Below are positions 4,729-63,312 of a stretch of 64,000 nt of DNA, in pieces (position 1 is the first letter of the stretch; each line of letters starts with the position of its first letter). The notes below the pieces were generated by a model. That model was given only the letters and a program-made list of their open reading frames with translations, made no database searches and had not been told where the DNA came from. The stretch is from a bacterium (GTDB taxonomy: Bacteria; CAIWAD01): assembly GCA_030429345.1 (NCBI GenBank), contig JAUIFJ010000011.1, positions 62,001 to 126,000 on the forward strand, written 5' to 3'. The position numbers and the translations under genes were made by a program.

Positions 4729-5993
4729 CAATCTCTCCTCGTCTCGCCCTGTGCGGAGCGCGTCATTCCATCGGTCTCGGAGCGGGCGGGTCGCGCCAGC
4801 TCCTCCAGTTCCAGGGTCGCCTTCCAGAGGCGGACCAGGCTGGCGTCTCGCTGAAGGCGGAGGCGTGTCCGATCCATGGCGGCGGAGGCGAGCTCGTCGT
4901 AGCGCGCCAGTCCCCCGCGGTATTCTTCTTCGGTGGATTCCAGCAGGGCTTCCGCGATGGGAAGCAGGTCGATCCGCAAGCGCTCTTCGTCCCGTTCGGC
5001 GCTGATTCGCGCGTCTTGCGCCAGCCGCCAGCGCTCAAGAAGGCGCAGCTCCGTGTCCCGCAAGCCGGCGGAGGCGCCCGCGCGCTCCTGAGCGGCAAGG
5101 GCGCGACGCGCCTGGTTCGCGCCTTGCCAGAGGGGCAGGCGTATGGACAGGTTCAGGGCGAGGGCGTCTCGTCCTGACTCCTGCACCGGCATTTCCGCTT
5201 CTCCAATGAAAAGCCAGGAGAGTCCGAAGCTAAGATCCGGGCGCGAGGCCAGACGGCTCAGCTCTTCGCTGGATCGTGCTCGAAGTACACTCGAGGTTGC
5301 CTGCAGCACCGCGGGGTGATCTTGCACTCCCGCGTTGTCCGGCAGTGAGCCGGGCAGGGTCAAGTCGGCGGGCAGGACCAGGTCCTCTCCCTGCGATCGG
5401 CCGATGGCCCGGGCAAGGGCCTGCCGAAGTCCGTGCAAGCGATCCCCACCTTCCGCCAGGCGCAGGCGAGCCTGCTCTTCGCCGAGGCGGGCCCGCAGGC
5501 TGGCGCCGGAGCGCCCGATGCCCGCCGCATACTCCGCTTCCAGGCTGGCGCGCTGTCGGCTGCTCCAGTCCAGCAGATCCGACAAGTGTTCGATCTCGCG
5601 CTCCTGCTGCCATAGGGCGAGCCAGGCTTTGCCGGCGGCCAGGCGCAGCTCCCTTTCCTCATTCTGCAGCCGGTAGAACTCTCCACGGGCCTCCGCGTGG
5701 GCACGCTCCTTCTGCACCTGCAGAGTTCCGGGCCAGGGCAGGGGCTGCTGCAGCTGCAGGGCGCCCTGCTGGGGGCCCAGACGGGTTTCCACGGGACGGG
5801 GTTGCAGACTCACGCCCAGACGAGGTTCCGGCAGAGTGCCCGCCAGCTGGATTCCTTCGCGGCTGGCCTCTGCCATTGCCAATGCTGCCTCGAACCTGGG
5901 CGTCCTGGTGGCGGCTTCCTGTGCTTCTCGCAGGTTCAGCTCTTCCGCTTGTAGCAGGGAAGGGAACAGGAGCAGGCAGATGAGCAGATGCAT
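4728..5993 (-). CDS. CusC/TolC-family outer-membrane efflux channel
   Basis: Outer-membrane component of the metal efflux complex. The chosen ATG gives 421 aa with a clean signal peptide (MHLLICLLLFPSLLQA) and a GCGAGG ribosome site 7 nt upstream. The frame is open further upstream to 6293, but that extension has no signal sequence or ribosome site. The body is long alpha-helical repeats rich in Glu, Arg and Leu, as in TolC proteins, for example LNLREAQEAATRTPRFEAAL at the start of the mature chain and SLEAEYAAGIGRSGASL in mid-protein. It lacks the second lipobox Cys seen in some CusC proteins. It is the first gene of the contiguous channel-adaptor-pump trio. Confidence 0.88.
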   Translation of the reverse strand: MHLLICLLLFPSLLQAEELNLREAQEAATRTPRFEAALAMAEASREGIQLAGTLPEPRLGVSLQPRPVETRLGPQQGALQLQQPLPWPGTLQVQKERAHAEARGEFYRLQNEERELRLAAGKAWLALWQQEREIEHLSDLLDWSSRQRASLEAEYAAGIGRSGASLRARLGEEQARLRLAEGGDRLHGLRQALARAIGRSQGEDLVLPADLTLPGSLPDNAGVQDHPAVLQATSSVLRARSSEELSRLASRPDLSFGLSWLFIGEAEMPVQESGRDALALNLSIRLPLWQGANQARRALAAQERAGASAGLRDTELRLLERWRLAQDARISAERDEERLRIDLLPIAEALLESTEEEYRGGLARYDELASAAMDRTRLRLQRDASLVRLWKATLELEELARPARSETDGMTRSAQGETRRD

Positions 5994-10582: not shown

Positions 10583-12394
10583 ATGCGTAAGGCAATCCTT
10601 CTTGGCGCCATGGTGGCTGGCCTTGCCGTGTCTGCCCACGCCGAGTACGCGATTGGCGAAACTCCGCCGGACTTCACCTGCGACACCACGTTGCCGGGCG
10701 AATTCGGTGCGGAGTGGAACCTGTATGAACACCGCGGCCAGGTCGTGCTGATCAACTTCGGGGCCACGTGGTGACCGGCTTGTAATACGGAGTTTCCGCA
10801 TTTACAAACCGATTTTCGCGAAGTCTACAGTGAAGCCGAGCTGGAGATCGTCCACATTGACACCGACGGTATTTCGGCCAGTGCGCTGAACAACCACTGG
10901 AGTCAATACAACCCGACCTTCCCCATCCTGCAGGGCTGCAACAGCATCTATGGCCCCTACGGCACGGGTTACATCCCCCACACCACCATCCTGGACACCG
11001 AGGGCATCGTCCGCGGCAACTGGGTCGGCTACAGCAGTGGAGTCGGCGCCGAAATGGCCGCCATCATCGAGCAGTTCGCCTCCATCGACCATCCTGCCCT
11101 GGCCATCGAGATGCTCGAACTGAGTGGCGACGCCAACGGCGACGGCCGCCCGGATCCGGGTGAGACCATCGACCTGGCCCTGACCCTGGTCAATCCCGGC
11201 ATCGCCGTGGACGGCACCAGCATCAGTGCCACCTTGACCTGCAGCGATCCCGGCATCACCGTGCTGAACGACATGGTCACCTTTGCCGACTGCCCCGCGG
11301 GCGGCACCACCACGGGTGACGCCATGTTCAGCTTCAGCGTTGCCGAGGGCACCGATCCCTTCTTCGCCACCTTCTCCTTCGAGATGTCGGCGGATTACGA
11401 AGGCGCCAGCGAGCCCTTCATTTCCATGGAAGACCAGATGGTCCGCATCGGCCGTCCCGCCACCCTGGTGGTCGACAGCGACGGTCCGGACGACGATAAC
11501 GAGACTTTCCTGACCAGCGAACTGGCCAGCCGCGGCATCGGCTATGATGTCTGGGCCACCCCCACCACCGGTGAGATCGACGGCGACGAGCTGATGCGCT
11601 ATGATCGCGTCTATTGGCTGGGCGGCACGAATCCCAACGACCTGATGGCGACGGAAGCCTTCGGCCTGGCCGCCTTCCTGGACAACGGCGGCGAGCTGAT
11701 CATGAGCAGCCAGTACGCCACCGACAACAGCGAGAACAGCCAGTTCATCGAGGACTACTTCGGCGTGCAGCTGGAGCAGGACCTGGGTGTGACCACCTTC
11801 CTGCTGGAAGGCGTCGAGGGCGATCCCTACTTCGGCAACACCAACTTCGTCATCACCGGCAGCGGCGGCGCCTCGAACAACGAGCATCCCGACCGCCTGA
11901 TGGTGACCGGCGACCACGCTACCGGCTTCACCACCTGGTTGCAGGGCGGCGGCACAGGCGGTGTCTATGTCGAGACCGACGACTACAAGGCGATTTTCAT
12001 GGGCTTCCCGGTGGAGGCTGCGCGTACGCACAGCAGCTATCCCAACAGCCTGACCATGGACACCTTCCTGGACCGCGCGGAGAACTTCTTCAGCGGCAAC
12101 ACCAGTGTGGGCGAGCCGGCCCTGGCCAGCGAGTTCCGCATTGAAGGCGCCTGGCCGAATCCCTTCAACCCGAGCACGATGCTATCCTTCACCCTGCCCC
12201 AGGCTTCGAATGTGAACTTCACGGTTTACAATACCCTGGGCCGCAAGGTGGCGAACATCGAAGGCGGCGCCCTGCCCGCCGGCACCCATGAGGTGACGGT
12301 TGACGGCAGCGCCCTCGCCAGCGGCCTCTACTTCATCCAGATGAGCGCCGACGAGCAGGTCCGCGACCTGATCAAGGTGAGTCTGGTCAAGTAG
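10583..12394 (+). CDS. Secreted selenocysteine-containing thioredoxin-fold protein with T9SS C-terminal domain (TGA read as Sec64)
   Basis: 603 aa if TGA 10772-10774 is read as selenocysteine. The signal peptide is MRKAILLGAMVAGLAVSAHA. The thioredoxin/TlpA-like domain has GQVVLINFGATW, then TGA, then PAC: Sec64 replaces the first Cys of CXXC and Cys67 is the resolving Cys. The later cis-Pro strand GYIPHTTILDTEGIV completes the fold, so both sides of the TGA belong to one domain. A beta-sandwich follows (GDANGDGRPDPGETIDLALT), then an amidotransferase-like alpha/beta domain (DRVYWLGGTN, FLDNGGELIMSSQ) and a T9SS type A sorting domain (WPNPFNPSTMLSFTLPQ...SGLYFIQM). Ribosome site AAAGGAA. A hairpin directly after the TGA fits a bacterial SECIS, and a strong terminator follows. 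The likely role is surface or extracellular thiol redox chemistry. The alternative, a nonsense mutation, is less likely. Confidence 0.85.
10775..10810 (+). promoter_or_regulatory. Bacterial SECIS-like hairpin directly after the in-frame TGA
   Basis: The 36 nt after TGA 10772-10774 fold into a two-part stem. The lower stem pairs 10777-10785 with 10802-10810 (GG, one C/A mismatch, TTGTAA against TTACAA, CC). A small internal loop follows. The apical stem pairs 10788-10791 (CGGA) with 10795-10798 (TCCG) and closes a GTT loop at 10792-10794. Known bacterial SECIS elements place a short stem with G-U at the start of its loop about 16-37 nt after the UGA; here the gap is 17 nt. The codons here (TTT, CAT, TTA, CAA) are unusually A+T-rich for the gene, as expected if the RNA structure is constrained. 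Confidence 0.75.
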
Positions 12395-12416
12395 ACCGAT
12401 TCCCGGATGTATCCGG

Positions 12417-12449
12417 AGCCCCGCGATCGCTTGGATCGCGGGGCTTTTT
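12417..12449 (+). terminator. Rho-independent terminator after the selenoprotein gene
   Basis: A near-perfect GC-rich stem (AGCCCCGCGATC at 12417-12428 pairing with GATCGCGGGGCT at 12434-12445) with a 5-nt loop, followed by a run of T. It lies 23 bp after the stop codon. It ends transcription after the full 603-codon frame and not after the internal TGA, which supports a single transcription unit. Confidence 0.93.
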
Positions 12450-12997: not shown

Positions 12998-14047
12998 ATG
13001 CAAAAAAGTGCCTGCGATTCACGCCCCAATCTTTGCGGCCATACCCCTGTCGAGCTGGCGGAACTCTTCCGCGAGCGCGGGGAGGCCTCGTGGCGTTCGG
13101 ACCAGGTCTTCCAGTGGATCCACAAGAAGCAGATCTTCGATTTCGGCGAGATGAGCAACCTGGGCAAGGGGCTCCGCGAGCAGCTTGCCGGCGAGTTCGC
13201 GACCATGGACCTGGTCGCCGTGAGACATGCCGTCAGCCGGATCAGCGACTGCGAGAAGTTCCTCTTCCGCCTCTCGGACGGGGAGCACATCGAATCCGTC
13301 TGGATGGATTTCGGGGACCGGCAGACCCTCTGCGTCTCGAGCCAGGTGGGATGCGCAATGGGCTGCAGCTTTTGTGCGACAGCGACCATGGGGCTCAAGC
13401 GCCACCTGCAGGCCGACGAGATCCTGCAGCAGGTGCTCTACGTGCAATCCCTGCCGGGGAAGGACCTGCGCAACATCGTCTTCATGGGCATGGGCGAGCC
13501 CCTGCACAACTTCGACGAGGTCGATCGCGCCGTCCGCCTGCTCAATGACCCCCTCGGCATGGCCATCGGCGCGCGGCGTATCACCGTGTCGACTTCCGGC
13601 CTGGTGCCGCAGATCCGTCGCCTGGCCGACGAGGGCGTGCCCTGCAGGCTGGCCGTGAGCCTCAACGCGGTCAACGATCCGCTGCGCGGCGAACTGATGC
13701 CGATCAACCGCAAATGGGGGCTGGACGAGCTCTTCGATGCCTGTCGCTACTGGACCGACAAACGCAAGGACCGTGTGACTTTCGAGTACATCCTCATGGA
13801 TGGGGTCAACGATGCCGAAGAGGACCTGAAGGGCCTGCGCAGCCGGCTCTCCCGCCTGCCCTGCAAGCTGAACCTGATCTACTACAACCCGACGGACCGC
13901 GGCTACCGCAGCAGCGAGACGCGTGTATACGACCGCTTCTTCGAGGCGCTGAGGAACTCGCCCTTCGCCGTCACCCTGCGCCAGAACATGGGAACCGACA
14001 TCAGCGCCGCCTGCGGGCAGCTGCTCGTAGAGGAGAGTCGCGGCTGA
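12998..14047 (+). CDS. rlmN: Dual-specificity 23S rRNA/tRNA adenine-C2 methyltransferase RlmN
   Basis: Radical-SAM enzyme that methylates C2 of A2503 in 23S rRNA and A37 in some tRNAs. 349 aa, normal for the family. The [4Fe-4S]-binding CXXXCXXC motif is CAMGCSFC near residue 121. VFMGMGEPLHNFDEV is the GEP motif, and the C-terminal catalytic Cys lies in DISAACGQL. The N-terminal accessory domain starts at HTPVELAELFRERGE. The start lacks a clear ribosome site but a promoter-like sequence ends 6 nt upstream. The stop overlaps the ATG of the next gene (TGATG), so it leads a tightly coupled run of genes through murI. Confidence 0.96.
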   Translation: MQKSACDSRPNLCGHTPVELAELFRERGEASWRSDQVFQWIHKKQIFDFGEMSNLGKGLREQLAGEFATMDLVAVRHAVSRISDCEKFLFRLSDGEHIESVWMDFGDRQTLCVSSQVGCAMGCSFCATATMGLKRHLQADEILQQVLYVQSLPGKDLRNIVFMGMGEPLHNFDEVDRAVRLLNDPLGMAIGARRITVSTSGLVPQIRRLADEGVPCRLAVSLNAVNDPLRGELMPINRKWGLDELFDACRYWTDKRKDRVTFEYILMDGVNDAEEDLKGLRSRLSRLPCKLNLIYYNPTDRGYRSSETRVYDRFFEALRNSPFAVTLRQNMGTDISAACGQLLVEESRG

Positions 14048-14943: not shown

Positions 14944-16271
14944 TCGCCCGCTACCTGCTGCGCTTCGCCCTGGCCGTGCTCGACCTGTCGGCCCTGCTGA
15001 TCGCCGCCGGCCTTGGCTGGTGGCTGCGCTTCGAGATCCTGCCGCGTTTCCTGCCGGGCATGGTTCATGTGACACAACCCATGGGCAAGATGACCGGCTT
15101 CCTGGTCTTCTGCGCCCTGGCCCAGCTCTTCTTCGCCGCGAACAGCGGCCTGTACCACTTCCGGACCAACATCTTCCGCCAGCAGTTCTTCGGCAGCCTG
15201 CGCACCGTCTCCCTGCTCTTCCTGCTGGTCGTCGCCTACCTGGTCGTCTTCAAGATCAACTTCGAGTTCAGCCGCCTGGCGACGCTGATGAGCATGCTCA
15301 TCCTGGCTATCCTGATGCCGGTGCTGCGATTCGTCTTCCTGCGGCTTGTCGTCCGAGTCGGAGTGTTGCGGCTGCCTGCGCTGTTGATCGGGACGGAAAG
15401 CGCCCGCAAGGCCTTCGCCGAGCACATGGAAGACCGGCACTTCGAGCGTCAGACACGCGTATTGGCGCGCCTCTCGCCGGACGAACTGATCGATCCGGAA
15501 AACCACCTGCTGCGGGAGGAGTGGGATCGTCGCATCGAGCAGATGATCCGCTCCGACGGGCTGGGGAAGATCGTGATCCTGATGGAGGGCCTGCCGCGCC
15601 GGCAGCTGGTGGCCCTGCTGCGCGAATTCGAGATCCGCCTGAAGTACATCCAGCTCGTGCCGGACGCGCCCTCGCTGGCCCTGGTCGGCAGCACGCCGGT
15701 CGAGACGGACAATGCCCTGATGCTCAGCCTGCGCCAGACCCTGATGCGTCCGGCGGCGCGGATCACAAAGCGCCTCGTGGACAATCTGCTGATTCTGCCC
15801 TTCCTGCTTCCCCTGGGCCTGCTGCTGTTCCTTTGCCTGCCCTTCTTCCGCGGGAAGCCCCTGACGCGTATACAGCGCTTTGACCTGGAGGGGCGCCCTT
15901 TCCATCTCTGGCAGTTGGCGGTCGACTACGAGCGCGGCGGTTTCCTGTTCCAGAGCGGCCTCTACAAGCTCCCGGAGATCCTGGGCATCCTGACCGGACG
16001 CCAGGCCCTGGTCGGTCCGGCGCCGCTGATCGAGCGCGAACTGGGCGAGTATCACCACATGAGCGGGGCCCTGCGCCGTGTCCGGCCCGGCATGACGGGC
16101 CTGTGGCAGATCAGCGATTTCGGCTATTTCAACGCGGATCACCGCATGGCGCTGGACCTGTACTACGCCATGAACTGGTCCCCGCTGCTGGACCTGCGCA
16201 TTCTCGCGGAGTCCGGGTGGAAAGGCGTCTACAGCCTCTTCCGTCCCCGCCAGGGAGGCATGCGTGCCTAG
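14940..16271 (+). CDS. WcaJ-like polyisoprenyl-phosphate sugar-1-phosphate transferase
   Basis: Membrane enzyme that would start glycan assembly on undecaprenyl phosphate. 443 aa from GTG (ribosome site GGAAGG). Four to five N-terminal helices are followed by a Rossmann-like domain, a further helix (LLILPFLLPLGLLLFLCLPF) and the C-terminal transferase domain (ITKRLVD, LTRIQRFDLEGRPFHLWQL, ALVGPAPLIERE, RPGMTGLWQISD). The position that normally carries the Asp-Glu catalytic pair (in the usual LDELPQ-type segment) reads GLYKLPEILGIL here, so the dyad is missing or moved. The family is clear, but activity is uncertain. Confidence 0.87.
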   Translation: MIARYLLRFALAVLDLSALLIAAGLGWWLRFEILPRFLPGMVHVTQPMGKMTGFLVFCALAQLFFAANSGLYHFRTNIFRQQFFGSLRTVSLLFLLVVAYLVVFKINFEFSRLATLMSMLILAILMPVLRFVFLRLVVRVGVLRLPALLIGTESARKAFAEHMEDRHFERQTRVLARLSPDELIDPENHLLREEWDRRIEQMIRSDGLGKIVILMEGLPRRQLVALLREFEIRLKYIQLVPDAPSLALVGSTPVETDNALMLSLRQTLMRPAARITKRLVDNLLILPFLLPLGLLLFLCLPFFRGKPLTRIQRFDLEGRPFHLWQLAVDYERGGFLFQSGLYKLPEILGILTGRQALVGPAPLIERELGEYHHMSGALRRVRPGMTGLWQISDFGYFNADHRMALDLYYAMNWSPLLDLRILAESGWKGVYSLFRPRQGGMRA

Positions 16272-17733
16272 GGCCGGGGCATCCCGCCTGGCTGCCCTGG
16301 AGGGCGTGATCCGGAACCGGCTCCCGGCCGGACATGCCTGGGCCGCGCCGCGCGAGGAGGGGCCGCGCTTGTGCACGGATCACCGCCATGCCCGCCCCGG
16401 CGATCTCTTCGTCGCCGTGCGCGGCGAGCGCTTCGACGGCCACCGGGTCGTGGACGGGCTGCGCGCCCGCGGAGTCCAATGCGTGATCCAGCAGGGGGAA
16501 GCGGCTTCTGAGGCCGAGCTGGTCGTTTCCGACAGCAGGGCCTGGCTGGCCCGGGCGGCGGAACTGCTGGAAGGGGATCCCAGCCGCTCGCTGCGCCTCT
16601 ACGCGTTTACCGGAACCAACGGCAAGACGACCACGGCCTGGATCCTGCAGCACCTGCTGCTGCGGGAAGACCCCCGCGCCGGTTTGTGTGGCACGCTGGG
16701 CATGAGGATCGGCGACAGTCCCCTGGAAAAGGGATCGCTGACGACTCCTCCGGCCTGGGAGTTGAGCGGCTTCTGCGCCGATGTCGTACGGCAGGGCGGG
16801 CGGTCGCTCGTGCTGGAGGCCTCGAGTCACGCCATCGACCAGCGCAGGCTGCATGGCCTTCATGTATACGCAGCGGCCTTCCTGAACCTGGCTCCCGAAC
16901 ACCTGGACTACCACGGGGACATGGACCGGTACTTCCGCTGCAAGGCCGGCTTCCTGCAACGCGAGGAACTGCAGCTGCGCGTCGTGCTCTGCGAGGATGA
17001 CTGGGGCCGCCGCCTGGCGCAGACGCCGGGCTATTCCTGGACCCGGGTGGGCGGGAATCCGGATTGCCGCTGGCAGCTTCTCCTGCGGGAATCCAGCGAA
17101 CACGGGCAACGGATGCGTCTGCGCGGACCGCAGGGAGAAGAAGACTACACCCTGCCCCTGCCGGGCGTCTACAATGCGCAGAATGCCCTTGCGGCCATCG
17201 TCTTGGCGCGTGAAAGCGGTTTGTCCCGTGAAGCTGTCCGCGATTCCCTTGGGACCCTGCCTCTTGTTCCCGGGCGGATGGAGCTATTGCGCGCCCCGGG
17301 TCGGCCGACCGTGGTCATCGACTACGCGCATACGCCGGACGGCTATCGGGCCTGCCTGCAGAGCCTGGCCGAGTGGCACAAAGGGCCGCTGACCTGCCTC
17401 TTCGGCTGCGGCGGCGAACGCGATCGCGAAAAGCGCCCCGAGATGGTGCGCGCCGCGGCCGAGCACGCCGGCCAGCTGGTGTTTTGCCTGGACAATCCAC
17501 GGGGGGAGGATCCGGAGCAGATCTTCAGGGACATGCAGGCCGGTCTCGATTCGCGTATACAGGCCCGGCGCGTGGACGACCGGCGGGAAGCCATCCGCTG
17601 GGCGATCGGGAACACGCCCGCCGAGGGCCTTGTGGTCCTTTTGGGGAAGGGACATGAACGCTACCAGCTCATCGGGAAGGAACGCCTGCCCTTCGATGAG
17701 CCGGCCATCGTGCGCGAGGTCTTCGATGGCTGA
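16264..17733 (+). CDS. murE: UDP-MurNAc-tripeptide synthetase MurE, meso-diaminopimelate type
   Basis: Cytoplasmic ATP-dependent ligase adding the third residue to UDP-MurNAc-L-Ala-D-Glu in peptidoglycan synthesis. 489 aa. ATP loop GTNGKTTTAWIL, EASSHAIDQRRL, Lys of CKAGF that is usually carbamylated, C-terminal ligase-domain DYAHTPDGY and GCGGERDREKRPEM. The DNPRGEDPEQI motif (DNPR) marks enzymes that add meso-diaminopimelate, so this organism probably has DAP-type peptidoglycan. GTG start, overlapping the previous gene by 8 bases and the next by 8. Confidence 0.96.
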   Translation: MPRAGASRLAALEGVIRNRLPAGHAWAAPREEGPRLCTDHRHARPGDLFVAVRGERFDGHRVVDGLRARGVQCVIQQGEAASEAELVVSDSRAWLARAAELLEGDPSRSLRLYAFTGTNGKTTTAWILQHLLLREDPRAGLCGTLGMRIGDSPLEKGSLTTPPAWELSGFCADVVRQGGRSLVLEASSHAIDQRRLHGLHVYAAAFLNLAPEHLDYHGDMDRYFRCKAGFLQREELQLRVVLCEDDWGRRLAQTPGYSWTRVGGNPDCRWQLLLRESSEHGQRMRLRGPQGEEDYTLPLPGVYNAQNALAAIVLARESGLSREAVRDSLGTLPLVPGRMELLRAPGRPTVVIDYAHTPDGYRACLQSLAEWHKGPLTCLFGCGGERDREKRPEMVRAAAEHAGQLVFCLDNPRGEDPEQIFRDMQAGLDSRIQARRVDDRREAIRWAIGNTPAEGLVVLLGKGHERYQLIGKERLPFDEPAIVREVFDG

Positions 17734-19054
17734 GCGGATCCTGCTCATCGGCAGTGGCCTCAGCGCCATGGCCGCCGCCCGCCTGGCCCGCAGCCGACAG
17801 GCGGAGGTCGCGCTCTGCGACGACAGGGATCTCCGCGAGGAGCGCAAGGGTGAATTGCGGGAGCTGGGTGTCACCGTTCTCGCGCCGGCGCAGGCTGCCG
17901 CTTTCCTGGAGGAAGACGGCACGGTCCTGCCCAGCCCGGCAGTGCCCATGTCGCACGGAATCCTGAAGGAAGCCCGCCGCCTGGGGCGACGTATACAAAG
18001 CGAGATCTCCTACTCCCGTTCCTTCTTCGACGGCCGCCTGACCGGAATCACGGGAAGCAACGGGAAGTCGACGGTCACGGCGCTGACGGCGCATGTGCTG
18101 CAGCAGGCCGGGCGGAAGGCGGAAGCCGGGGGCAACATCGGCCTGCCCTTCGCGGAACTCGCCTTGCGGACTCCCCCGGTGGAACACGCCGTGCTGGAGC
18201 TCAGCAGCTACCAGCTCGAGACCACCGACGAGCTGCAGGCCGACTGCGCCCTGCTGCTCAACCTGAGTCCGGACCACCTGGAGCGGCACGGCAGCCTGGA
18301 AGCCTACGGGAAGGCCAAGCTGAGACTGGCGGAGCAGCTCCGGCCGGACGGCTGCCTGGTGCTGGGACGTGATGCCGCCTTTTTCGCCGAAGGGACGAAG
18401 GGGCTGAAGCGGCGGCGCCTGTTCTTCGGCCGAAGCCCGGACTGCGCCATCTGGCGCGAGGGCTCCGTGATCCATTTTCCGGAAGCCGGCCTGAAGGACT
18501 GGCTGCGCGAAGAGGACCTGATCCTTCGCGGATCACACAATCTGGACAACGCCATGGCGGCGGCATTGGCCTGCTTCTGCGCGGGACTTGGAGCGGAAGA
18601 GACGGCGCGCGGGCTGTCCACCTTCCATCCCCTGGCGCACAGGCTGGAACCGGTGGCGAGTCGGCATCCCGCGCACTGGATCAACGACAGCAAGGCGACC
18701 AATGTAGACGCCGGCCGCATGGCGATTCTCAGCGTGCGGACGGGAGGGCTGTGGCTACTTGCAGGCGGAGAAGCCAAGGGCCCCGATTTCAGCCTGGTCC
18801 GTGATTGCCTGCAGGGGCGGGGCGCCCGGGTGATCTGCTACGGGAGGCATCGCGACTGGATCCGCGAGGGCCTGTCTTCGGTGGCTGAAGTCCGCTGTCT
18901 CGAGACCCTCGAAGAGGCTGTCGCACAGGCGGCGCGAGAGGCGGGAGCGGGGGACACGGTGCTCTTCAGTCCGCTCTGCGCCAGCTTCGACCAGTACCGG
19001 AATTTCGTAGAACGAGGAGAGCATTTCCGCCGGCTAGTGGAGGAGCTGCAATGA
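17726..19054 (+). CDS. murD: UDP-MurNAc-L-alanine:D-glutamate ligase MurD
   Basis: Adds D-Glu to UDP-MurNAc-L-Ala in the cytoplasm. 442 aa from the ATG at 17726, which overlaps the murE stop. N-terminal nucleotide-binding start AERILLIGSGLSAMAAARL, ATP loop GSNGKSTVTAL, ELSSYQLET, NLSPDHLERHGS with the modified Lys in AYGKAK, and NDSKATN before the C-terminal domain. It lies between murE and murI, which makes the D-Glu substrate. An upstream in-frame extension to 17630 lies inside murE and is not used. Confidence 0.96.
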   Translation: MAERILLIGSGLSAMAAARLARSRQAEVALCDDRDLREERKGELRELGVTVLAPAQAAAFLEEDGTVLPSPAVPMSHGILKEARRLGRRIQSEISYSRSFFDGRLTGITGSNGKSTVTALTAHVLQQAGRKAEAGGNIGLPFAELALRTPPVEHAVLELSSYQLETTDELQADCALLLNLSPDHLERHGSLEAYGKAKLRLAEQLRPDGCLVLGRDAAFFAEGTKGLKRRRLFFGRSPDCAIWREGSVIHFPEAGLKDWLREEDLILRGSHNLDNAMAAALACFCAGLGAEETARGLSTFHPLAHRLEPVASRHPAHWINDSKATNVDAGRMAILSVRTGGLWLLAGGEAKGPDFSLVRDCLQGRGARVICYGRHRDWIREGLSSVAEVRCLETLEEAVAQAAREAGAGDTVLFSPLCASFDQYRNFVERGEHFRRLVEELQ

Positions 19055-55458: not shown

Positions 55459-56377
55459 GCCCCTTGAGCACTTCCCAGACGACCTCTCCGACGATGCCGA
55501 GGCTTTCGGCGCTGCACTGGTCGGGTGTGTCACGGTTCGTGTGCCAGGCGGGATAGTCGAAATCGATGATGTTGATCACCGGAATGCCGACCTCGATCAG
55601 CGGCACGTGGTCGTCGAGGATCTGCTGGCCGATCTCGTCGACGAAGATGTGCTCGTAGCCCAGGGCTTTCGCCGTGCCCCAGACCTGCCCGACCAGCGGG
55701 CGATTGGCGATCAGGCTGTTGACCTCCACCGGAATGCGCAGGTCGCGATCCCCGATCATGTCCAGGTTCATGCCCAGGGAGGGGCGGGGGTCGGGAATGT
55801 TCTGCGCGAAATAGCGTGATCCGATCAGGTATTGGTGGGAATCGCCTTCCTCGCCCCAGTCCTCGCCGTCATAGAGCACAATGTCCACGCCGACGGCCAC
55901 GGGCTGCTCCTTCAGCAGGCGGGCCAGTTCCAGCAGCACCACGACTCCGCTGGCGGCGTCGTTGGCGCCGACGAGCGGAACGGCGGCCTTGTCCGGATCC
56001 GTTTCCCGGTCCGAGAAGGGGCGGCTTTCCCAGTGCGCGCTGAGCAGGATGCGCCGTGATTCAAAGGGATTGAAACGGCAGAGGATGTTCGACAATTCCA
56101 GGTAGGGCTTGTCCCTGTCGTACATCGGGTGCTTCTCTTCCACCGGGTGCTGGAAGTTCTGCAGGAAGGTCACATCGCCCAGGTCTTCCAGGCGCTCCAC
56201 GATCCAGTCCCTGGCCACCGTGTGACCAGGCGCTCCGGGATAGCGGGGCCCGATGTCGCAGAAGGCGATCAGGTCCTCCATGGCCTTCTCGCCCGAGAAT
56301 TCGGAAGCGAGGCCAGTGCCGGTCGCGGCCAGCAGGCAAGAGGTCGTCAGGCCCAGGAACAGGCTTCGCATGCTCAT
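55451..56377 (-). CDS. Secreted M28-family peptidase / glutaminyl-cyclase-like hydrolase
   Basis: 308 aa. Signal peptide MSMRSLFLGLTTSCLLAATG. M28 zinc residues: ILLSAHWESRPFSD (His), GANDAASGVVVLLE (Asp), YDGEDWGEEGD (Glu), LGMNLDMIGD (Asp), and DYPAWHTNRDTPDQC (His). The DGEDWGEE segment and overall size are like glutaminyl-peptide cyclotransferases, which make N-terminal pyroglutamate; aminopeptidase activity is the alternative. Downstream of sprA with overlapping stop and start (ATGA; GGAGGAA ribosome site), so probably co-transcribed. N-terminal pyroglutamate formation is common on T9SS-exported proteins, which would fit this context. Confidence 0.9.
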   Translation of the reverse strand: MSMRSLFLGLTTSCLLAATGTGLASEFSGEKAMEDLIAFCDIGPRYPGAPGHTVARDWIVERLEDLGDVTFLQNFQHPVEEKHPMYDRDKPYLELSNILCRFNPFESRRILLSAHWESRPFSDRETDPDKAAVPLVGANDAASGVVVLLELARLLKEQPVAVGVDIVLYDGEDWGEEGDSHQYLIGSRYFAQNIPDPRPSLGMNLDMIGDRDLRIPVEVNSLIANRPLVGQVWGTAKALGYEHIFVDEIGQQILDDHVPLIEVGIPVINIIDFDYPAWHTNRDTPDQCSAESLGIVGEVVWEVLKGLN

Positions 56378-59300
56378 CGGTTTCCTCCCGAGCCGCCGCG
56401 GCGGCCGCGGCTGTTGCGGATCTGGATCGTGCAGTTCACGCCGAACTCGGTGTAGGAGGTCTTGTTGCTGATGGTGCCCGTCTCGCTGGAACCGAATTCG
56501 TAGAAGGCGCCGCCGCTCACATTGGTGCTGAACTGGAAGTCGGCGCTTCCGCGCAGCGTCCAGCTGCGGTCCTCCTGCGGCGTGTTCCAGACCAGTTCCT
56601 CCAGCGCCTCCTCGCCGTTCTCCTGCGGCGTTCTGCGAGTGGTACTGTTGATCGAGGTGTCCAGGTTCCGCGTGTACTCCAGCCTCAGGGTGGTCTGGTT
56701 GCGGAAGGGGGTCTTCATGAAAGGCAGCTTGAAGCCCTTCTCCAGCCGCCGGTTTCCGGAGATCGAGAGGCTGTTGCGGCTGGTGTAGCTCAGGCTGCGG
56801 CTGTCCGAGTCCGGGTCGTTGACGCGGATCGAGCGGTTGGCGTTGTAGTTCAGGCTGCCGCTCCAGCCCTTGCCGGTGTTGAAGTCCAGGCCGACCAGCG
56901 GACTGAAGGAGCGGCTGAAGTTCAGCTGGCTGCGGAACAGGCCGCCGCTCGTGCTCGCGCTGTAGGAGGTCTGCAGGCGCCCGGTGTAGTTGTGATTCAT
57001 GTTCACGCTGTTGAAGGCGCTCTTCAAGAGCGGCAGCTTTTCCAGGCCGCCAATGGAGAAACTGTAGTTGGGAATGGCCCGCAGGGCGGGGTTCCCGCCG
57101 ATCACGTCGCCGTCTCCCAGCGTCCCCTTGCCCAGCAGTTCCTCGTTGTCGAAGTCGTACCAGCCGTTCTCGCTTTCCGAGCGGATGGTCTCCCGCTCGT
57201 CGGTGAAGCTCTGGCTGAACTCGTACTCGTAGCTCAGGTCCAGCGGAATGCGGGGGATCACCTTGAGCTGCGTGTTCAGGCGGTAGTCGTAGCCGAAGGT
57301 GCGCTGCGACTGGACCGTGTAGTTGCCTACATTGATCGTGTCGATTCCCGTATCACGGCTGAGGCCCAGCTGGTAGGCCAGGCTGGCGTGGCGATCCGTC
57401 CAGTCGCTCGTCCAGGGATAGACCGCCTGGCCCGGATTGGTGAAGCTGTTGTTGCGGTTGAAGTTGATGCTCAGGTCGTCGAGAACCTCCGTCAACAGGG
57501 CCAGTCGGTGATACACGGCGCGCGTGCCGCGTGCCAGGATCCCCGGGCCCTTGTCCTCTTCCGGCTCTTCCTGGATCACGGGTCCGGCGCTTTCCCGCGC
57601 CTCGACGGAATCCGGCAAGGCGGCGGCAGGCAGGCTCTCTTCCGTGTCCAGGCTGTCGCTGCCGCTTTCCCCCATGCGGGAGAAGACGGGTTCCTGGCCC
57701 TCGTCCCTGCCGGCCATGTCTTCCCGGCTCGCCTCGAGGGGCGGCGGCGGCGGCGGAAGCAGGTCGTTCCCGTCCACGGTGCCGTCCTCGCCGTTCTTGC
57801 GCGCCTCTTTCTCCTGGCGCTTGCGCTCCTTTTCCGCCTTCCGCTCCTCGCGGCGTTCCTGGCGCTCGGCCTTCTTGCGCTGGCGCTCCTCGGCCCGCTC
57901 GGCCTTCCGCTCCTGGTGCGTGTTCTTGATTTCACGCATCTCCTCGGTATCGAGGAAGAGCATGGTCTGCAGGACCTGCGGCGTCTGCAGGCGGAAGCGC
58001 GTGCTGAAGTCGCCGCGGCTGGCCACATCCACGCCGCGGGCAGGCTCGATCAGTGTGCGCCGCCAGGTATAGCTGCTCGAGTAGCTGAAGCTCGTGCTGA
58101 GCCAGTCCAGCAGGTCCGGGTCGAAACTGGCGCTGAAGGGCTGGCTGATGTTGTGATCCCCCTCGAAGAAGCCGGCGCTGCCCTCCAGCCAGCGCTCGTA
58201 GCCCTCGTAGAAGGCGTCGTCCGATTCGCGGGTCGGGTCGTCTTCCGGAACGGTCGTGAGACGCCGGTCGAAAAGCAGGTTGTTCTGGTACTGGCGGCTG
58301 ATGTTGAAGCCCAGGTTGCTGAAGAGCTGCCAGCCGGTCGAGGCGTTGCGGTCCAGCGTATACTGCTCGGTGTGGAGGAAGGTGCCGTCCCGGTCCAGCT
58401 TGTCGCGCAGCGTGCGGCGGGCCGAGGCGGTCAGGTTCAGGTTGGTGGGGAAGTAGTTCAGCTCCACTTCGCCCAGTCCGCCGATCAGCGGCCAGTCGGG
58501 CACGAAGACCAGCGGCTGCAGGCGGTGCTTCCAGTTGAAGTTGCCGCTGTTGAAGCCGACGTTGAAGTTCTGTGTCACGGTCGTGTCGCCGGCGACCAGC
58601 TTGTTGCGGCTGACGGTCTCGGCAATGTCGTAGCTCAGGGAGACCTTATCGACGAGCACGCGGCCGACCAGCGACTCGGACTCGTTCTTGTCGAAGCCGA
58701 TGCGCGCGTTGCGGCGGCGTGAGACATCCTCGACCCATTCCGGATGGTCGTCGGGATCCACCTCGTCGTCGTCGTTGGGGAAGTACTTGGGCAGCTTGAA
58801 GTCGTGCGACCAGCTGCCGGATACGGCGATGCTCGTGTTCCACGAAGGGGGCAGGAAGCGCCCCAGGTCCGTGTTGCCGTTGAAACTGCGCTTGCGCTGG
58901 AAGGTCTGGTTCGTGCCCGAGCTGCGCTGTTTCACATTGTGGAACTCGGCATCCTGCTGCTCGAAGTTGACATCCATGCGCAGGAAGTCGCTGAACTTGG
59001 CGTCGACCTCCGCTCGCACGGCGGTGGCGTTCTCCTTCTTGACATCGGAAACGCGCAGCTCATTGAACCAGACTTCGGTCGTCGCGGGACGCGCGTCGTG
59101 GTTCTTGACGCCGAAGAGCAGCGTGCGCACCTGGTTGATCGAGGGACTGCCGACCACGCGGACCTGCCCCCCGTCGCTCAGGAGGATCGGCTTGTCCGGC
59201 TCCTCCTGCTGCTTGCGCGCCTCGCTGAAGGTTTCCAGTCCGGTGATCTCCCGCAGGATGATGTCCACGGAGTTGCTCTCCGCCCAGCCTTCCTCGATGA

Positions 59301-62300
59301 ACTTGCTGTACTCGTAGTAGTTGCCCTCGCTGGACTGGATGCGGAAGATGAATTCCAGCTTGTCCTCGCCGACGAAATCGACCACGCCGGGCAGCTCGCC
59401 GCTTTCCGCCGTTCTCGTGAAGGAGCCGCCGTGCAGGAACATGCGCAGCTTGCGGTACTCGGTGAAGCTGGCGGCGGTGGCGAACTGCTTGCGCGCCCAG
59501 GCCGTCTGGCCGAAGGGCATGTCCTCGAGTTGCATCACGAGGCTCTGCTCGCGGCTGACCTGGTTGGTCAGGAAGTCCAGCTGGCCCTGCACGCCCGGCG
59601 GGCCGTAGTAGTCCTGCCGGTTGTCGAAGTTGTTGAGCACGGTCAGCTCGTAGTGGCTTGTATCACTGTCGGCGATCTGGATCTCGCGCCATTCGTTGCC
59701 GACCACGTTGAACTCGACCAGGTCCATCGTCAGCGGCTCGACATTGCCGGTGAACCACAGGCGCACGCCGTTGACCAGGGTCAGGCTGGGCGCGCCGACG
59801 CGCTCGGCCTCGTCCGGGTCCAGGGGAATGCGCACGTAATACCAGTCGTTGTCCAGCGGCGAGGCGTAGACCGGGAATTCCGGGTGGTTCGGATTGAGCG
59901 GGATCGAGTAGGTGTAGTACGCGTCTTCCTGGTCCAGGCTCTTGTTGCCGTTGCGGTCCTCCGTGTCCGGGTAGTTCTGCTCGGCGTTCAGCCGGTTGCC
60001 TTCCCAGCCGTGTCCCCTGTCGAATCCGTCGACAGCGGGGTCGTTGTCCGGCAACACGGTCAGTTCGGTCGGGCTGCGCACCCAGTTGTCGTAGGACCAG
60101 GGCTCGGCGGGTTCCTTGACGCCGTTGAAATTGATGTCCCAGAAGTCGTAGGGCAGTTCCGTGCTCAGACCCGTCGCGCCGAAGAGCTCGTCCGGCATCG
60201 GCCAGGGCGGGTCCTCGCCGATGGCCCCGTCCAGGCCCACGTCCTCGCTGGTCGCCAGCAGATTGTCGTTGTTGATGTCCTCGGTGTCGAGGGTGCCGTT
60301 GGGGATCACATCCTCGCTGACGCGCCCCAGGTCGATGTGCATCGTGCCGCTGCGGTCGCCGTAGGCGCGGAAAGTCAGTTCCAGGTATTTCTTGTCGCTC
60401 AGGTCGTCGTAGGCGCCGCGGAAGTCGTAGTAGATGCCGCCCCAGCCGTCTCGCCGCTCGATGGGCGTGCCGTTGGGGCCGATCTCCGTGTCCGTGCCGA
60501 CCTGGCTCTCCAGGGTGAAGGGGTAGTAGTGGATGCGGAAGACGCGCAGGTTGTTTTCCGCGGTCTGGTTGTCGCCCTGTTGGAACTGCTTCCAGATGTC
60601 GCGCGCCTCCACGCGGTCCCGCGGATTCCACCAGCCGATCTGTCCGCGGTAGCCCAGAATGCCGTTGGCCGGCCGGGAGCTGATGAACCACTGGTTGTGA
60701 CTCAGGCCCATGGGGATTTCCTGCTTCGAGCTCTCGAAGTCGTCCACGTAGGCCACGCCGTTGTTGTCCCCCGTGTTGCCGTTGTTGCTCGGATTGGGAT
60801 CCGGCAGCACCATGGCGAACTCGGCTTCCAGGTTGAGCTCCGACTCGGCATCGGCCTCCACCAGGGGCAGGGCGTCTACAAGGGAGGTCATCAGCCGCGG
60901 CTTGAAGCCGATCTTCCCGTTTACATCGAAGATCAGGTTCTTGATCGGCTCGTTGCCCAGGCGGATCTTCCGCTCGCTGCTCTCCTCGTTGAAGTAGATC
61001 ATGCTCGCGCCCAGGAAGTTGTTCTGTCCCAGGTCGTACTTGGCGCTCAGGCCGGCATAGGTCTTCTTGCGCAGCTGGAAGAGCTGCGGCGTCTCGTAGG
61101 TGACCTCGATCTCCTGGTTGGGCGCCGTATACTGTGCGTTCGTGATGCGCACGATGCCGGCGAACTCGTCCAGTTCGTAGTCCGTGCCCTCGGTGAGACG
61201 GCGCCCGTTGGCCGTCACGCTGACATTGGTCACATTCCAGCCCAGGCTGATCACTTCCGTGCCCACCTGTGCCGTGCTCTCCAGCGTATACTTCGAGATC
61301 AGGTCCAGGTAGTCGATGGCCGTCTCGCGGATCGAGTAGAGCGTGTCGATCTCCGCCGCGTCCTCAAAGGGCGTATAGCGCGAATCGGTGGTGGAATTGA
61401 CCACGTTCGGCAGCACGGTCCGTCCCGAGGGATTGTCACTCAGCGCCACGTTCCAGGTCGTGTCCGCGCCGAAGGGCTCGACGACGGGAAACCACAGCTC
61501 GCCCTTTTCCGTGTCCAGCCAGTCCAGGTCGACCTTGCCGTCCTTTCCGGGAATGCCGGTGGCGTTGTTCTTCGTGTCCAGGTAGAACAGCGAGAGGTAG
61601 CTGTCGCTGCCCTGGCTGGGATTGCCCGTGCTGCCGCTTCGCGTCTGCAGGATGCGCATGCTGAAGTCGCCGTCCTCCGCGTTCTGCGCGTTCATGCGGT
61701 AGACGTTCTTCAGCTGCAGCTCCCAGTAGGGATCCGTGTCCGGACTCATGTTCTGCGGCACGAGGACGACCACCTCGTCGCCGTTGGCGGCCGTGTTGCC
61801 GTTGTTCCCCGTGAGCACGCCCTGGTTGAAGGGGCCGTGTGTCAGCCCGCTCTGGGCGAGGGTGATCTGCCCGTCGAAGAGGCCTGGTGTGGAGGTCGAG
61901 TAGGCCATGGCGACGAACTCGTTGCGGCTGGGGCGGAAGTTGAGCCTCACGATGCCGCGGTAGGGATCGATCTCGAAGTCCAGGTCCTCCGTCGTGCCCG
62001 GCGTCCAGGTCTGGGGGATCATCAGGTAGCCGCCCTCGAAGGGGCTGGGCCCGCCCGGTTCGGGGTGGGCCAGCTGCAGCTCCTTGCGCTCGGCGTCGTC
62101 GGCGGCCGAAAAGCGGAAGAGCGTGAAGCGCGTGATGCGCGCATCCTCGATGTAGTTGTGATCCATCGTCCCGGAGGTATACATGCGGTAGCGGTCGCGG
62201 TAGAAGGAATTGATGAAGAAGATGTTCTTCACCCAGTCGCCCAGGTTGCGCTCGGTCAGGCTTTCGCTGCTGCCGTCGCCACGGGCCTTCTGGCTCTTCG

Positions 62301-63312
62301 ACTCGTTGCGCTCGCTGGAGGCGACGCCGGTCAGCTCCAGGGGGCCGAAGCGGGTGACGGCCTTCAGGCCGAAGAGGCCGCTGGAGCGCTCGCTGAAATT
62401 GACAAAGCGCGTCGAGGGCAGGCTGAGCGAGATGTTGCCCACCTGCAGGCTCTGGATCACCTCTTCCGGCTCGCCGGTGTAGGTGATCGAGAGACTGTTC
62501 TCGAAATCGAAGGTGCGTTCCGTGTCCTGGTCGATGTGCACATCCACCTTCTCGCCGATCTTGCCGACCACGGTGAACTGCTGGCTCTGTTCCAGGTTGA
62601 AGTTGCTGTTGTTGTTGGCGAACTGGCTGGCGCTTTCCGATTCGCGCTTCTCGCGACGGAAGGCGCCGCGAATGCCGATCTGGCCGGTGACATTCATGCC
62701 GATGCGGCCGCTGCCGAAAATGCGCTGGAAGGTCTGGCTGCGGATCTTGAAGGGAATGTCGATCTGGATATGCTCGCCCGTGGAGCTGCCTCCGCCGAGG
62801 CTCTCTTCCTGGATGTCCTTGCGCAGCAAGGAGTGGTTGCGGTCCCGCCGTTGGCTTTCGCGCAGCTGCTCGAAGCTCAGGAAGCGGGTTTCCAGCAACT
62901 GGCCGCTGTAGTCGTAGCGGCGCTGCACCACGCCCGTCGCCAGGGTGTCCAGGACGATGCGCCCTGGCGCCAGGCCGAGCAGGTTGTTCAGGGATGCATC
63001 CGGGGCCGTGCCCAGCCAATCCGTGGAAGCGCCGCTTCGAAAGCCGGTTTGCAGGGAGCGGTCCTCTTCCTGCGCCGTCAGCCGGGCACAGAACAGCCCG
63101 ACCAGCAGAAGTGCCAGTCCGAGCGCATGCCATCCTCGAGTGGGAATCCCTTGCCTCTTCAGTGGTGAGATGTGGGGTGTCCTTTGGAAGTCCTTGAGCG
63201 GGAAAGCCCTGCTTTCCTGCGCCGCCGCGAGAAAATCCTTAGCAGTAGATCCGGATGGTCCTCCTTTCGGACACGAGACAAGGCAGAACGGTCTGCCGGC
63301 GAAGTCGCCCAT
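56374..63312 (-). CDS. sprA: SprA-family T9SS outer-membrane translocon
   Basis: 2312 aa giant barrel protein through which T9SS cargo crosses the outer membrane. Family segments are present along the length: GEHIQIDIPFKIRSQTFQRI near residue 155, YRGIVRLNFRPSRNEFVAMA, GYRGQIGWWNPRDRVEARDI, DNDWYYVRIPLDPDEAERVG and a C-terminus of amphipathic strands (ETGTISNKTSYTEFGVNCTI). An unusual Lys/Arg/Glu-rich helix (residues about 1790-1850, followed by polyPro) lies inside. The ATG at 63312 has no ribosome site; the signal peptide (IPTRGWHALGLALLLVGLF) begins only near residue 55, so the real start may be the ATC at 63171, which has AAAGGA 8 nt upstream. Confidence 0.93.
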   Translation of the reverse strand: MGDFAGRPFCLVSCPKGGPSGSTAKDFLAAAQESRAFPLKDFQRTPHISPLKRQGIPTRGWHALGLALLLVGLFCARLTAQEEDRSLQTGFRSGASTDWLGTAPDASLNNLLGLAPGRIVLDTLATGVVQRRYDYSGQLLETRFLSFEQLRESQRRDRNHSLLRKDIQEESLGGGSSTGEHIQIDIPFKIRSQTFQRIFGSGRIGMNVTGQIGIRGAFRREKRESESASQFANNNSNFNLEQSQQFTVVGKIGEKVDVHIDQDTERTFDFENSLSITYTGEPEEVIQSLQVGNISLSLPSTRFVNFSERSSGLFGLKAVTRFGPLELTGVASSERNESKSQKARGDGSSESLTERNLGDWVKNIFFINSFYRDRYRMYTSGTMDHNYIEDARITRFTLFRFSAADDAERKELQLAHPEPGGPSPFEGGYLMIPQTWTPGTTEDLDFEIDPYRGIVRLNFRPSRNEFVAMAYSTSTPGLFDGQITLAQSGLTHGPFNQGVLTGNNGNTAANGDEVVVLVPQNMSPDTDPYWELQLKNVYRMNAQNAEDGDFSMRILQTRSGSTGNPSQGSDSYLSLFYLDTKNNATGIPGKDGKVDLDWLDTEKGELWFPVVEPFGADTTWNVALSDNPSGRTVLPNVVNSTTDSRYTPFEDAAEIDTLYSIRETAIDYLDLISKYTLESTAQVGTEVISLGWNVTNVSVTANGRRLTEGTDYELDEFAGIVRITNAQYTAPNQEIEVTYETPQLFQLRKKTYAGLSAKYDLGQNNFLGASMIYFNEESSERKIRLGNEPIKNLIFDVNGKIGFKPRLMTSLVDALPLVEADAESELNLEAEFAMVLPDPNPSNNGNTGDNNGVAYVDDFESSKQEIPMGLSHNQWFISSRPANGILGYRGQIGWWNPRDRVEARDIWKQFQQGDNQTAENNLRVFRIHYYPFTLESQVGTDTEIGPNGTPIERRDGWGGIYYDFRGAYDDLSDKKYLELTFRAYGDRSGTMHIDLGRVSEDVIPNGTLDTEDINNDNLLATSEDVGLDGAIGEDPPWPMPDELFGATGLSTELPYDFWDINFNGVKEPAEPWSYDNWVRSPTELTVLPDNDPAVDGFDRGHGWEGNRLNAEQNYPDTEDRNGNKSLDQEDAYYTYSIPLNPNHPEFPVYASPLDNDWYYVRIPLDPDEAERVGAPSLTLVNGVRLWFTGNVEPLTMDLVEFNVVGNEWREIQIADSDTSHYELTVLNNFDNRQDYYGPPGVQGQLDFLTNQVSREQSLVMQLEDMPFGQTAWARKQFATAASFTEYRKLRMFLHGGSFTRTAESGELPGVVDFVGEDKLEFIFRIQSSEGNYYEYSKFIEEGWAESNSVDIILREITGLETFSEARKQQEEPDKPILLSDGGQVRVVGSPSINQVRTLLFGVKNHDARPATTEVWFNELRVSDVKKENATAVRAEVDAKFSDFLRMDVNFEQQDAEFHNVKQRSSGTNQTFQRKRSFNGNTDLGRFLPPSWNTSIAVSGSWSHDFKLPKYFPNDDDEVDPDDHPEWVEDVSRRRNARIGFDKNESESLVGRVLVDKVSLSYDIAETVSRNKLVAGDTTVTQNFNVGFNSGNFNWKHRLQPLVFVPDWPLIGGLGEVELNYFPTNLNLTASARRTLRDKLDRDGTFLHTEQYTLDRNASTGWQLFSNLGFNISRQYQNNLLFDRRLTTVPEDDPTRESDDAFYEGYERWLEGSAGFFEGDHNISQPFSASFDPDLLDWLSTSFSYSSSYTWRRTLIEPARGVDVASRGDFSTRFRLQTPQVLQTMLFLDTEEMREIKNTHQERKAERAEERQRKKAERQERREERKAEKERKRQEKEARKNGEDGTVDGNDLLPPPPPPLEASREDMAGRDEGQEPVFSRMGESGSDSLDTEESLPAAALPDSVEARESAGPVIQEEPEEDKGPGILARGTRAVYHRLALLTEVLDDLSINFNRNNSFTNPGQAVYPWTSDWTDRHASLAYQLGLSRDTGIDTINVGNYTVQSQRTFGYDYRLNTQLKVIPRIPLDLSYEYEFSQSFTDERETIRSESENGWYDFDNEELLGKGTLGDGDVIGGNPALRAIPNYSFSIGGLEKLPLLKSAFNSVNMNHNYTGRLQTSYSASTSGGLFRSQLNFSRSFSPLVGLDFNTGKGWSGSLNYNANRSIRVNDPDSDSRSLSYTSRNSLSISGNRRLEKGFKLPFMKTPFRNQTTLRLEYTRNLDTSINSTTRRTPQENGEEALEELVWNTPQEDRSWTLRGSADFQFSTNVSGGAFYEFGSSETGTISNKTSYTEFGVNCTIQIRNSRGRRGGSGGNR

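Follow-up and report, generated by a model that had tools for sequence, protein, structure and literature searches.

A putative secreted selenoprotein with a ResA/TlpA-like redox center and a T9SS tail in an uncultured Delongbacteria-related bacterium

Gene frame and features of the locus

The window, the whole 64-kb stretch of DNA, contains a frame at 10583-12391, followed by TAG, whose only internal stop is a TGA at codon 64 (Table 1). The first-pass annotation had described a 603-codon frame interrupted solely by this codon, with Trp-TGA-Pro-Ala-Cys at a CXXC site and a cis-Pro downstream, and the translation bore this out: the surrounding residues read GATW-TGA-PACNTEFP, and the cis-Pro loop reads GYIPH (Pro132). 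One thioredoxin domain spans the TGA, as had been stated, with the Pfam AhpC-TSA profile matching residues 25-144 (2.2e-11). The anticipated split of the gene was also found, with an upstream piece that stops at the TGA 63 codons past the ATG at 10583 and a 446-aa ORF that starts at 11054, i.e., at residue 158, which the structure model places in the last helix of the redoxin domain.

Table 1. Features of the putative selenoprotein gene, its likely exporter and its TGA-less paralogues; positions are those of the window unless a locus is named.
Feature	Position	Strand	Basis
Whole gene	10583..12394	+	603 codons, putative Sec at codon 64, TAG stop
Predicted signal peptide MRKAILLGAMVAGLAVSAHA	10583..10642	+	N-terminal charge, then a hydrophobic stretch and A-H-A; layout shared by homologues
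ResA/TlpA-like thioredoxin-fold domain	10643..11080	+	PF00578, PDB profile matches to ResA, Foldseek
UGA codon, predicted Sec residue 64, place of first catalytic Cys	10772..10774	+	TGA column in 18 genes, Cys elsewhere, first Cys of ResA CxxC
SECIS-like hairpin with GUU (10792-10794) as apical loop	10776..10811	+	Fold, synonymous shuffles, covariation
Cys67, expected resolving residue of U-x-x-C pair	10781..10783	+	Nearly invariant in family alignments
cis-Pro (Pro132)	10976..10978	+	At least 90% conserved in family alignment; aligns with ResA cis-Pro region
All-beta (Ig-like) domain, residues 170-285	11090..11437	+	AlphaFold2 secondary structure
Cys-free ThuA/GIFT-like (class I amidotransferase fold) domain, residues 286-505	11438..12097	+	Model, Foldseek, weak DUF4159
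T9SS type-A C-terminal sorting domain, residues 524-594	12152..12364	+	TIGR04183, PF18962
Likely intrinsic terminator	12415..12447	+	14-pair stem, T-run after; consensus match only
sprA/sov, T9SS outer-membrane translocon, likely exporter	56374..63312	-	TIGR04189; 2312 aa
TGA-less Ser paralogues	L058:3479-5182, L060:3-899, L062:2137-3843	-	T-A-S-Q-P-C, hairpin lost

Domain architecture and predicted export

The domain around the TGA scored above the gathering cut-offs of both PF00578 (AhpC-TSA; 44.2 against 26 bits) and PF08534 (Redoxin; 32.9 against 26.6). When a profile of this domain was compared with the PDB, ResA and its relatives were retrieved, and the column of the TGA fell on the first Cys of their CxxC. 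AlphaFold2, run on the family alignment, gave a model with a mean pLDDT of 86 in which codon 64 lies directly ahead of the active-site helix (residues 65-79); its pTM of 0.58 is low, so the relative placement of the domains is uncertain.

Residues 286-505, modeled alone, reached a pLDDT of 85 and a pTM of 0.87, and Foldseek matched them to ThuA-like proteins, IFT52 and oligosaccharyltransferase subunits (E about 1e-7, TM about 0.6). In the window protein this region has no Cys, which makes amidotransferase catalysis through a Cys nucleophile unlikely; our guess is that it may bind a sugar or a surface. In one relative (contig C44 of genome G001) and in one of the Ser paralogues, an InhA-like MAM domain replaces the ThuA-like domain, and the relatives in genomes G080 and G223 have Pro/Thr-rich ends, that of G080 with a weak dockerin match. 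Judged from these sequences, the constant part is the putative Sec-redoxin with its signal peptide, and the surface modules vary. The part that follows the redoxin domain also recurs without a thioredoxin domain in many proteins of this genome, large ones among them (contigs C71, C25 and C27).

The first-pass annotation had called the protein secreted, and this is supported by the predicted signal peptide, by the C-terminal tail, and by an SprA gene within the same window. The tail scored 35.1 bits against a cut-off of 23 with TIGR04183 and matched Por_Secre_tail (PF18962) at residues 524-592 (3.2e-8). TIGR04189 summed to 663.9 bits over the sprA frame against a cut-off of 200, and the genome thus encodes a T9SS translocon, SprA being the component searched for. 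Export that begins with the signal peptide and is completed through the T9SS tail and SprA is the likely route. The protein could instead be held in the periplasm or outer membrane with the tail as a structural domain, given that FlgD_ig also matches the tail, that the G080 and G223 relatives have no such tail, and that several family members are without one. We consider this unlikely, as the sorting-domain match is above its cut-off, SprA lies in the same window, and the tail is common to many proteins of this genome.

Selenocysteine machinery and the genetic code

The genome of the window (4.24 Mb, 92 contigs, 98% complete) was searched for the genes of selenocysteine (Sec) incorporation. 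All four of selA, selB, selC and selD, whose presence the first-pass annotation had proposed to check, were found: a tRNA-Sec (anticodon UCA; 54 bits, above the Rfam cut-off), selB (307 bits against a cut-off of 242), selA (499 bits) and selD (341 bits). The selA and selB genes lie near each other on contig C87, with two TlpA-like genes without TGA (C87:30006-31698) close by. The selD gene (contig C46, locus L067, about 4890-5960, minus strand) has an in-frame TGA of its own in the motif CG-U-AAK, which matches the UxxK site given for Sec-containing SelD in PMC13188914. Rfam and tRNA scans of the 64-kb window itself returned no matches.

Amongst the genomes with related genes, both selA and tRNA-Sec were found in G001, in G002 and in G005, which belongs to a phylum other than that of the window. 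In G003, selA was found and no tRNA-Sec scored above the cut-off; in G004 (Candidatus Delongbacteria BS150m-G50, 67% complete), tRNA-Sec was found and no selA was detected. These two absences may come from incomplete assemblies.

A different decoding of the codon was considered, in which UGA is reassigned generally or locally (e.g., to Trp) or is read by a suppressor tRNA inserting Cys or another residue. The family plainly does read through its UGA, and some homologues have Cys at the column, which would fit such decoding. However, four genes of the window end in TGA: those at 12998-14047, 16264-17733 and 17630-19054, named from their sequences as rlmN, murE and murD, respectively, and the one at 56374-63312, named sprA by the TIGR04189 profile. 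Ordinary genes of the window therefore stop at TGA, indicating that the code is not reassigned. Additionally, the genome carries a complete Sec system including a tRNA-Sec with UCA anticodon, and Trp at residue 64 would destroy the redox motif. Altogether, these observations make a different decoding highly improbable.

Conservation of the TGA column amongst relatives

Relatives were collected from 98 genomes with the full protein as query and from 386 genomes with the domain profile. Counting the window gene, TGA occurs at the identical alignment column in 18 genes from nine genomes and six family-level groups (three genes each in G000 and G001, two each in G002 and G223, four in G004, and one each in G003, G005, G080 and G106). 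The residue ahead of the TGA is mostly Trp and sometimes Thr, and the TGA is almost always followed three residues later by a Cys; a copy in G004 has UPPWC. Four relatives (in G029, G259, G122 and G185) carry Cys at the column, so that the alignment proposed by the first-pass annotation yields TGA or Cys at this position. Three TGA-less paralogues in G001, G002 and G003 read T-A-S-Q-P-C, with Ala-Ser replacing Trp-Sec. A further relative (contig C280 of G003) was omitted from the set, its frame being broken inside the domain.

Broken genes can also show an in-frame TGA, and the codon might simply end a gene affected by a nonsense mutation, pseudogene decay or a sequencing error. A TGA column fixed in 18 separate genes rejects such explanations, which can be practically dismissed: the frames of the relatives are intact on both sides of the TGA, unlike those of pseudogenes, and a covarying hairpin lies behind it. 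It was also considered that the UGA serves as a regulated stop, yielding mainly a 63-residue peptide, with the full protein as a selenium-dependent minority product. Recoding in E. coli is indeed partial, at 30-40% in vivo according to PMC4513850. However, a 63-residue product would end within the fold, the entire downstream protein is conserved, and the TGA-less paralogues retain the full protein length in the family alignment. We therefore regard a regulated stop as very unlikely.

A maximum-likelihood tree placed every Sec and Ser row, together with the four Cys rows, in one group (99/98) separate from the ordinary ResA/TlpA proteins sampled, and the Ser rows formed a single branch nested among the Sec rows. 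Due to this nesting, the Ser form is most simply read as derived from the Sec form within the Delongbacteria-related part of the tree. In G001, a Ser paralogue adjoins a Sec copy. The window's own genome carries two further Sec copies in tandem (C46:30194-32619, locus L055), both paralogous to the window gene; the second of them is only 237 aa long, provided that its later TGA acts as a stop.

A SECIS-like hairpin behind the UGA

The SECIS element described for bacteria is a stem-loop that immediately follows the UGA and has a G in its small apical loop (PMC1088965). Directly behind the TGA of the window gene lies the sequence UGACCGGCUUGUAAUACGGAGUUUCCGCAUUUACAAACCG, predicted to fold into a hairpin with a G at nucleotide 21 (the U of UGA being 1) in the apical loop; its z-score against dinucleotide shuffles is -1.97. 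The window hairpin agrees with the described element.

Compared with synonymous-codon shuffles, 16 of the 18 genes folded better than the shuffle mean, and in six of the 16 the fraction was at most 0.05; since the 18 genes are related, these tests are not independent of one another. The hairpins of the two remaining genes (G001 C44 and one G001 C59 copy) were no more stable than their synonymous shuffles, and the same comparison revealed no comparable hairpin in the three Ser paralogues. Fold energies compared with other windows of the same gene, with no control for codons, were uninformative.

Covariation was assessed in 13 genes that share one register, where 83% of the cells pair. Cells with double changes numbered 18, compared to 7.4 in shuffles (0/500) and at most 9 in slid controls; for the seven apical pairs alone, double changes numbered 13 compared to 3.8. 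RNAalifold on 14 genes gave no single rigid SECIS consensus, the reason being that in five genes of G001-G003 the stem is displaced by one pair (ACCGAGUUUCCGGU). When the displaced structure was imposed on the full set of 14, it did no better than shuffles, and clear covariation was confined to the one-register set. A covariance model of the hairpin, run over this genome, matched only the three known family genes and thus revealed no further selenoproteins.

As the same TGA and hairpin recur in relatives of several lineages, routine annotation would be expected to split such genes and lose their active site.

Proposed function and significance

The best explanation is a secreted or cell-surface selenoprotein in which UGA 64 is decoded as Sec within a ResA/TlpA-like redox center, to which we assign a probability of roughly 90%. 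The suggestion of a Sec-containing protein in the first-pass annotation is thus upheld by the Sec genes, the TGA/Cys column and the covarying SECIS-like hairpin, all of them lines of evidence drawn from sequence. The middle domain, the T9SS translocon, the Ser paralogues and the occurrence in further phyla go beyond what that annotation had described. SelB and tRNA-Sec would decode UGA 64 with the aid of the hairpin directly downstream, as conservation, covariation and the machinery present suggest. From the fold and the motif, the Sec-x-x-Cys center is expected to work outside the cytoplasm as a thiol:disulfide or peroxide oxidoreductase, in which the selenolate would attack the substrate and Cys67 would resolve the selenenylsulfide. 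The signal peptide would lead the protein into the periplasm, from where it would pass through the T9SS to the outside, as its C-terminal tail and the presence of SprA suggest. The beta and ThuA/GIFT-like domains would probably anchor it to a glycan or surface, which is the weakest step of the proposed mechanism.

More broadly, we consider it somewhat probable that the gene belongs to a family of large, T9SS-exported and surface- or glycan-associated selenoenzymes in uncultured Delongbacteria-related bacteria. Sec would be the ancestral active residue there, the genes would occur partly in tandem, and a Ser form would have arisen at least once, keeping the protein but losing the Sec codon and the hairpin; in other phyla, the same Sec domain would be joined to other surface modules. 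Sec is costly and easily oxidized, and its use outside the cell raises the questions of which reaction demands it and what keeps it in the reduced state. The natural Sec/Cys/Ser series inside one clade makes the advantage of Sec testable. The protein would also extend the prokaryotic selenoproteome by a multi-domain, T9SS-tagged architecture, from lineages whose genes of this kind are cut at the UGA during annotation.

Comparison with known systems

Selenoproteins of the UxxC Prx-like, redoxin and TlpA type are known, with PF00578, PF08534 and cd02966 entries in Table 1 of PMC13188914, a review that lists 119 families or subfamilies and whose text, as searched, does not mention secretion or signal peptides. 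A search of one literature library returned no paper linking selenoproteins to T9SS, to a C-terminal sorting domain or to Delongbacteria, an absence that does not amount to proof. The window protein shares with the known UxxC redoxins the fold, Sec as the first residue of UxxC and a SECIS-like hairpin directly behind the UGA. It is set apart from them, by description, through its 603 residues, its predicted export and its beta, ThuA/GIFT-like and T9SS domains.

The window protein reached no NCBIfam redoxin or selenoprotein cut-off. It has a ResA-like domain and a putative Sec in common with the ResA-like WAxxUGC selenoprotein NF041054, but that family has U-G-C spacing in place of U-P-A-C, and the score was 22.9 bits, with the cut-off at 300. 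With ResA, TlpA and StoA, it shares the fold (Foldseek TM reaching 0.87 over the target) and the position of the catalytic pair, whereas those proteins are single-domain and have Cys instead of Sec; with 62.9 bits against the NF002854 cut-off of 170, it is ResA-like by fold and is not filed as a ResA member. The analogy to Sec thioredoxins drawn in the first-pass annotation applies to Sec at the first Cys of CxxC; thioredoxin proper, in contrast, is small and single-domain (18.1 bits against the TIGR01068 cut-off of 96.8). As in T9SS type-A cargo, a sorting domain above the cut-off is present and SprA is encoded in the genome; the literature library searched gave no example of such cargo with Sec. 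As UxxC redoxin selenoproteins are well known, the active site itself is not of a new kind; what seems new is the large, T9SS-tagged architecture of a putative exported Sec protein in poorly studied phyla.
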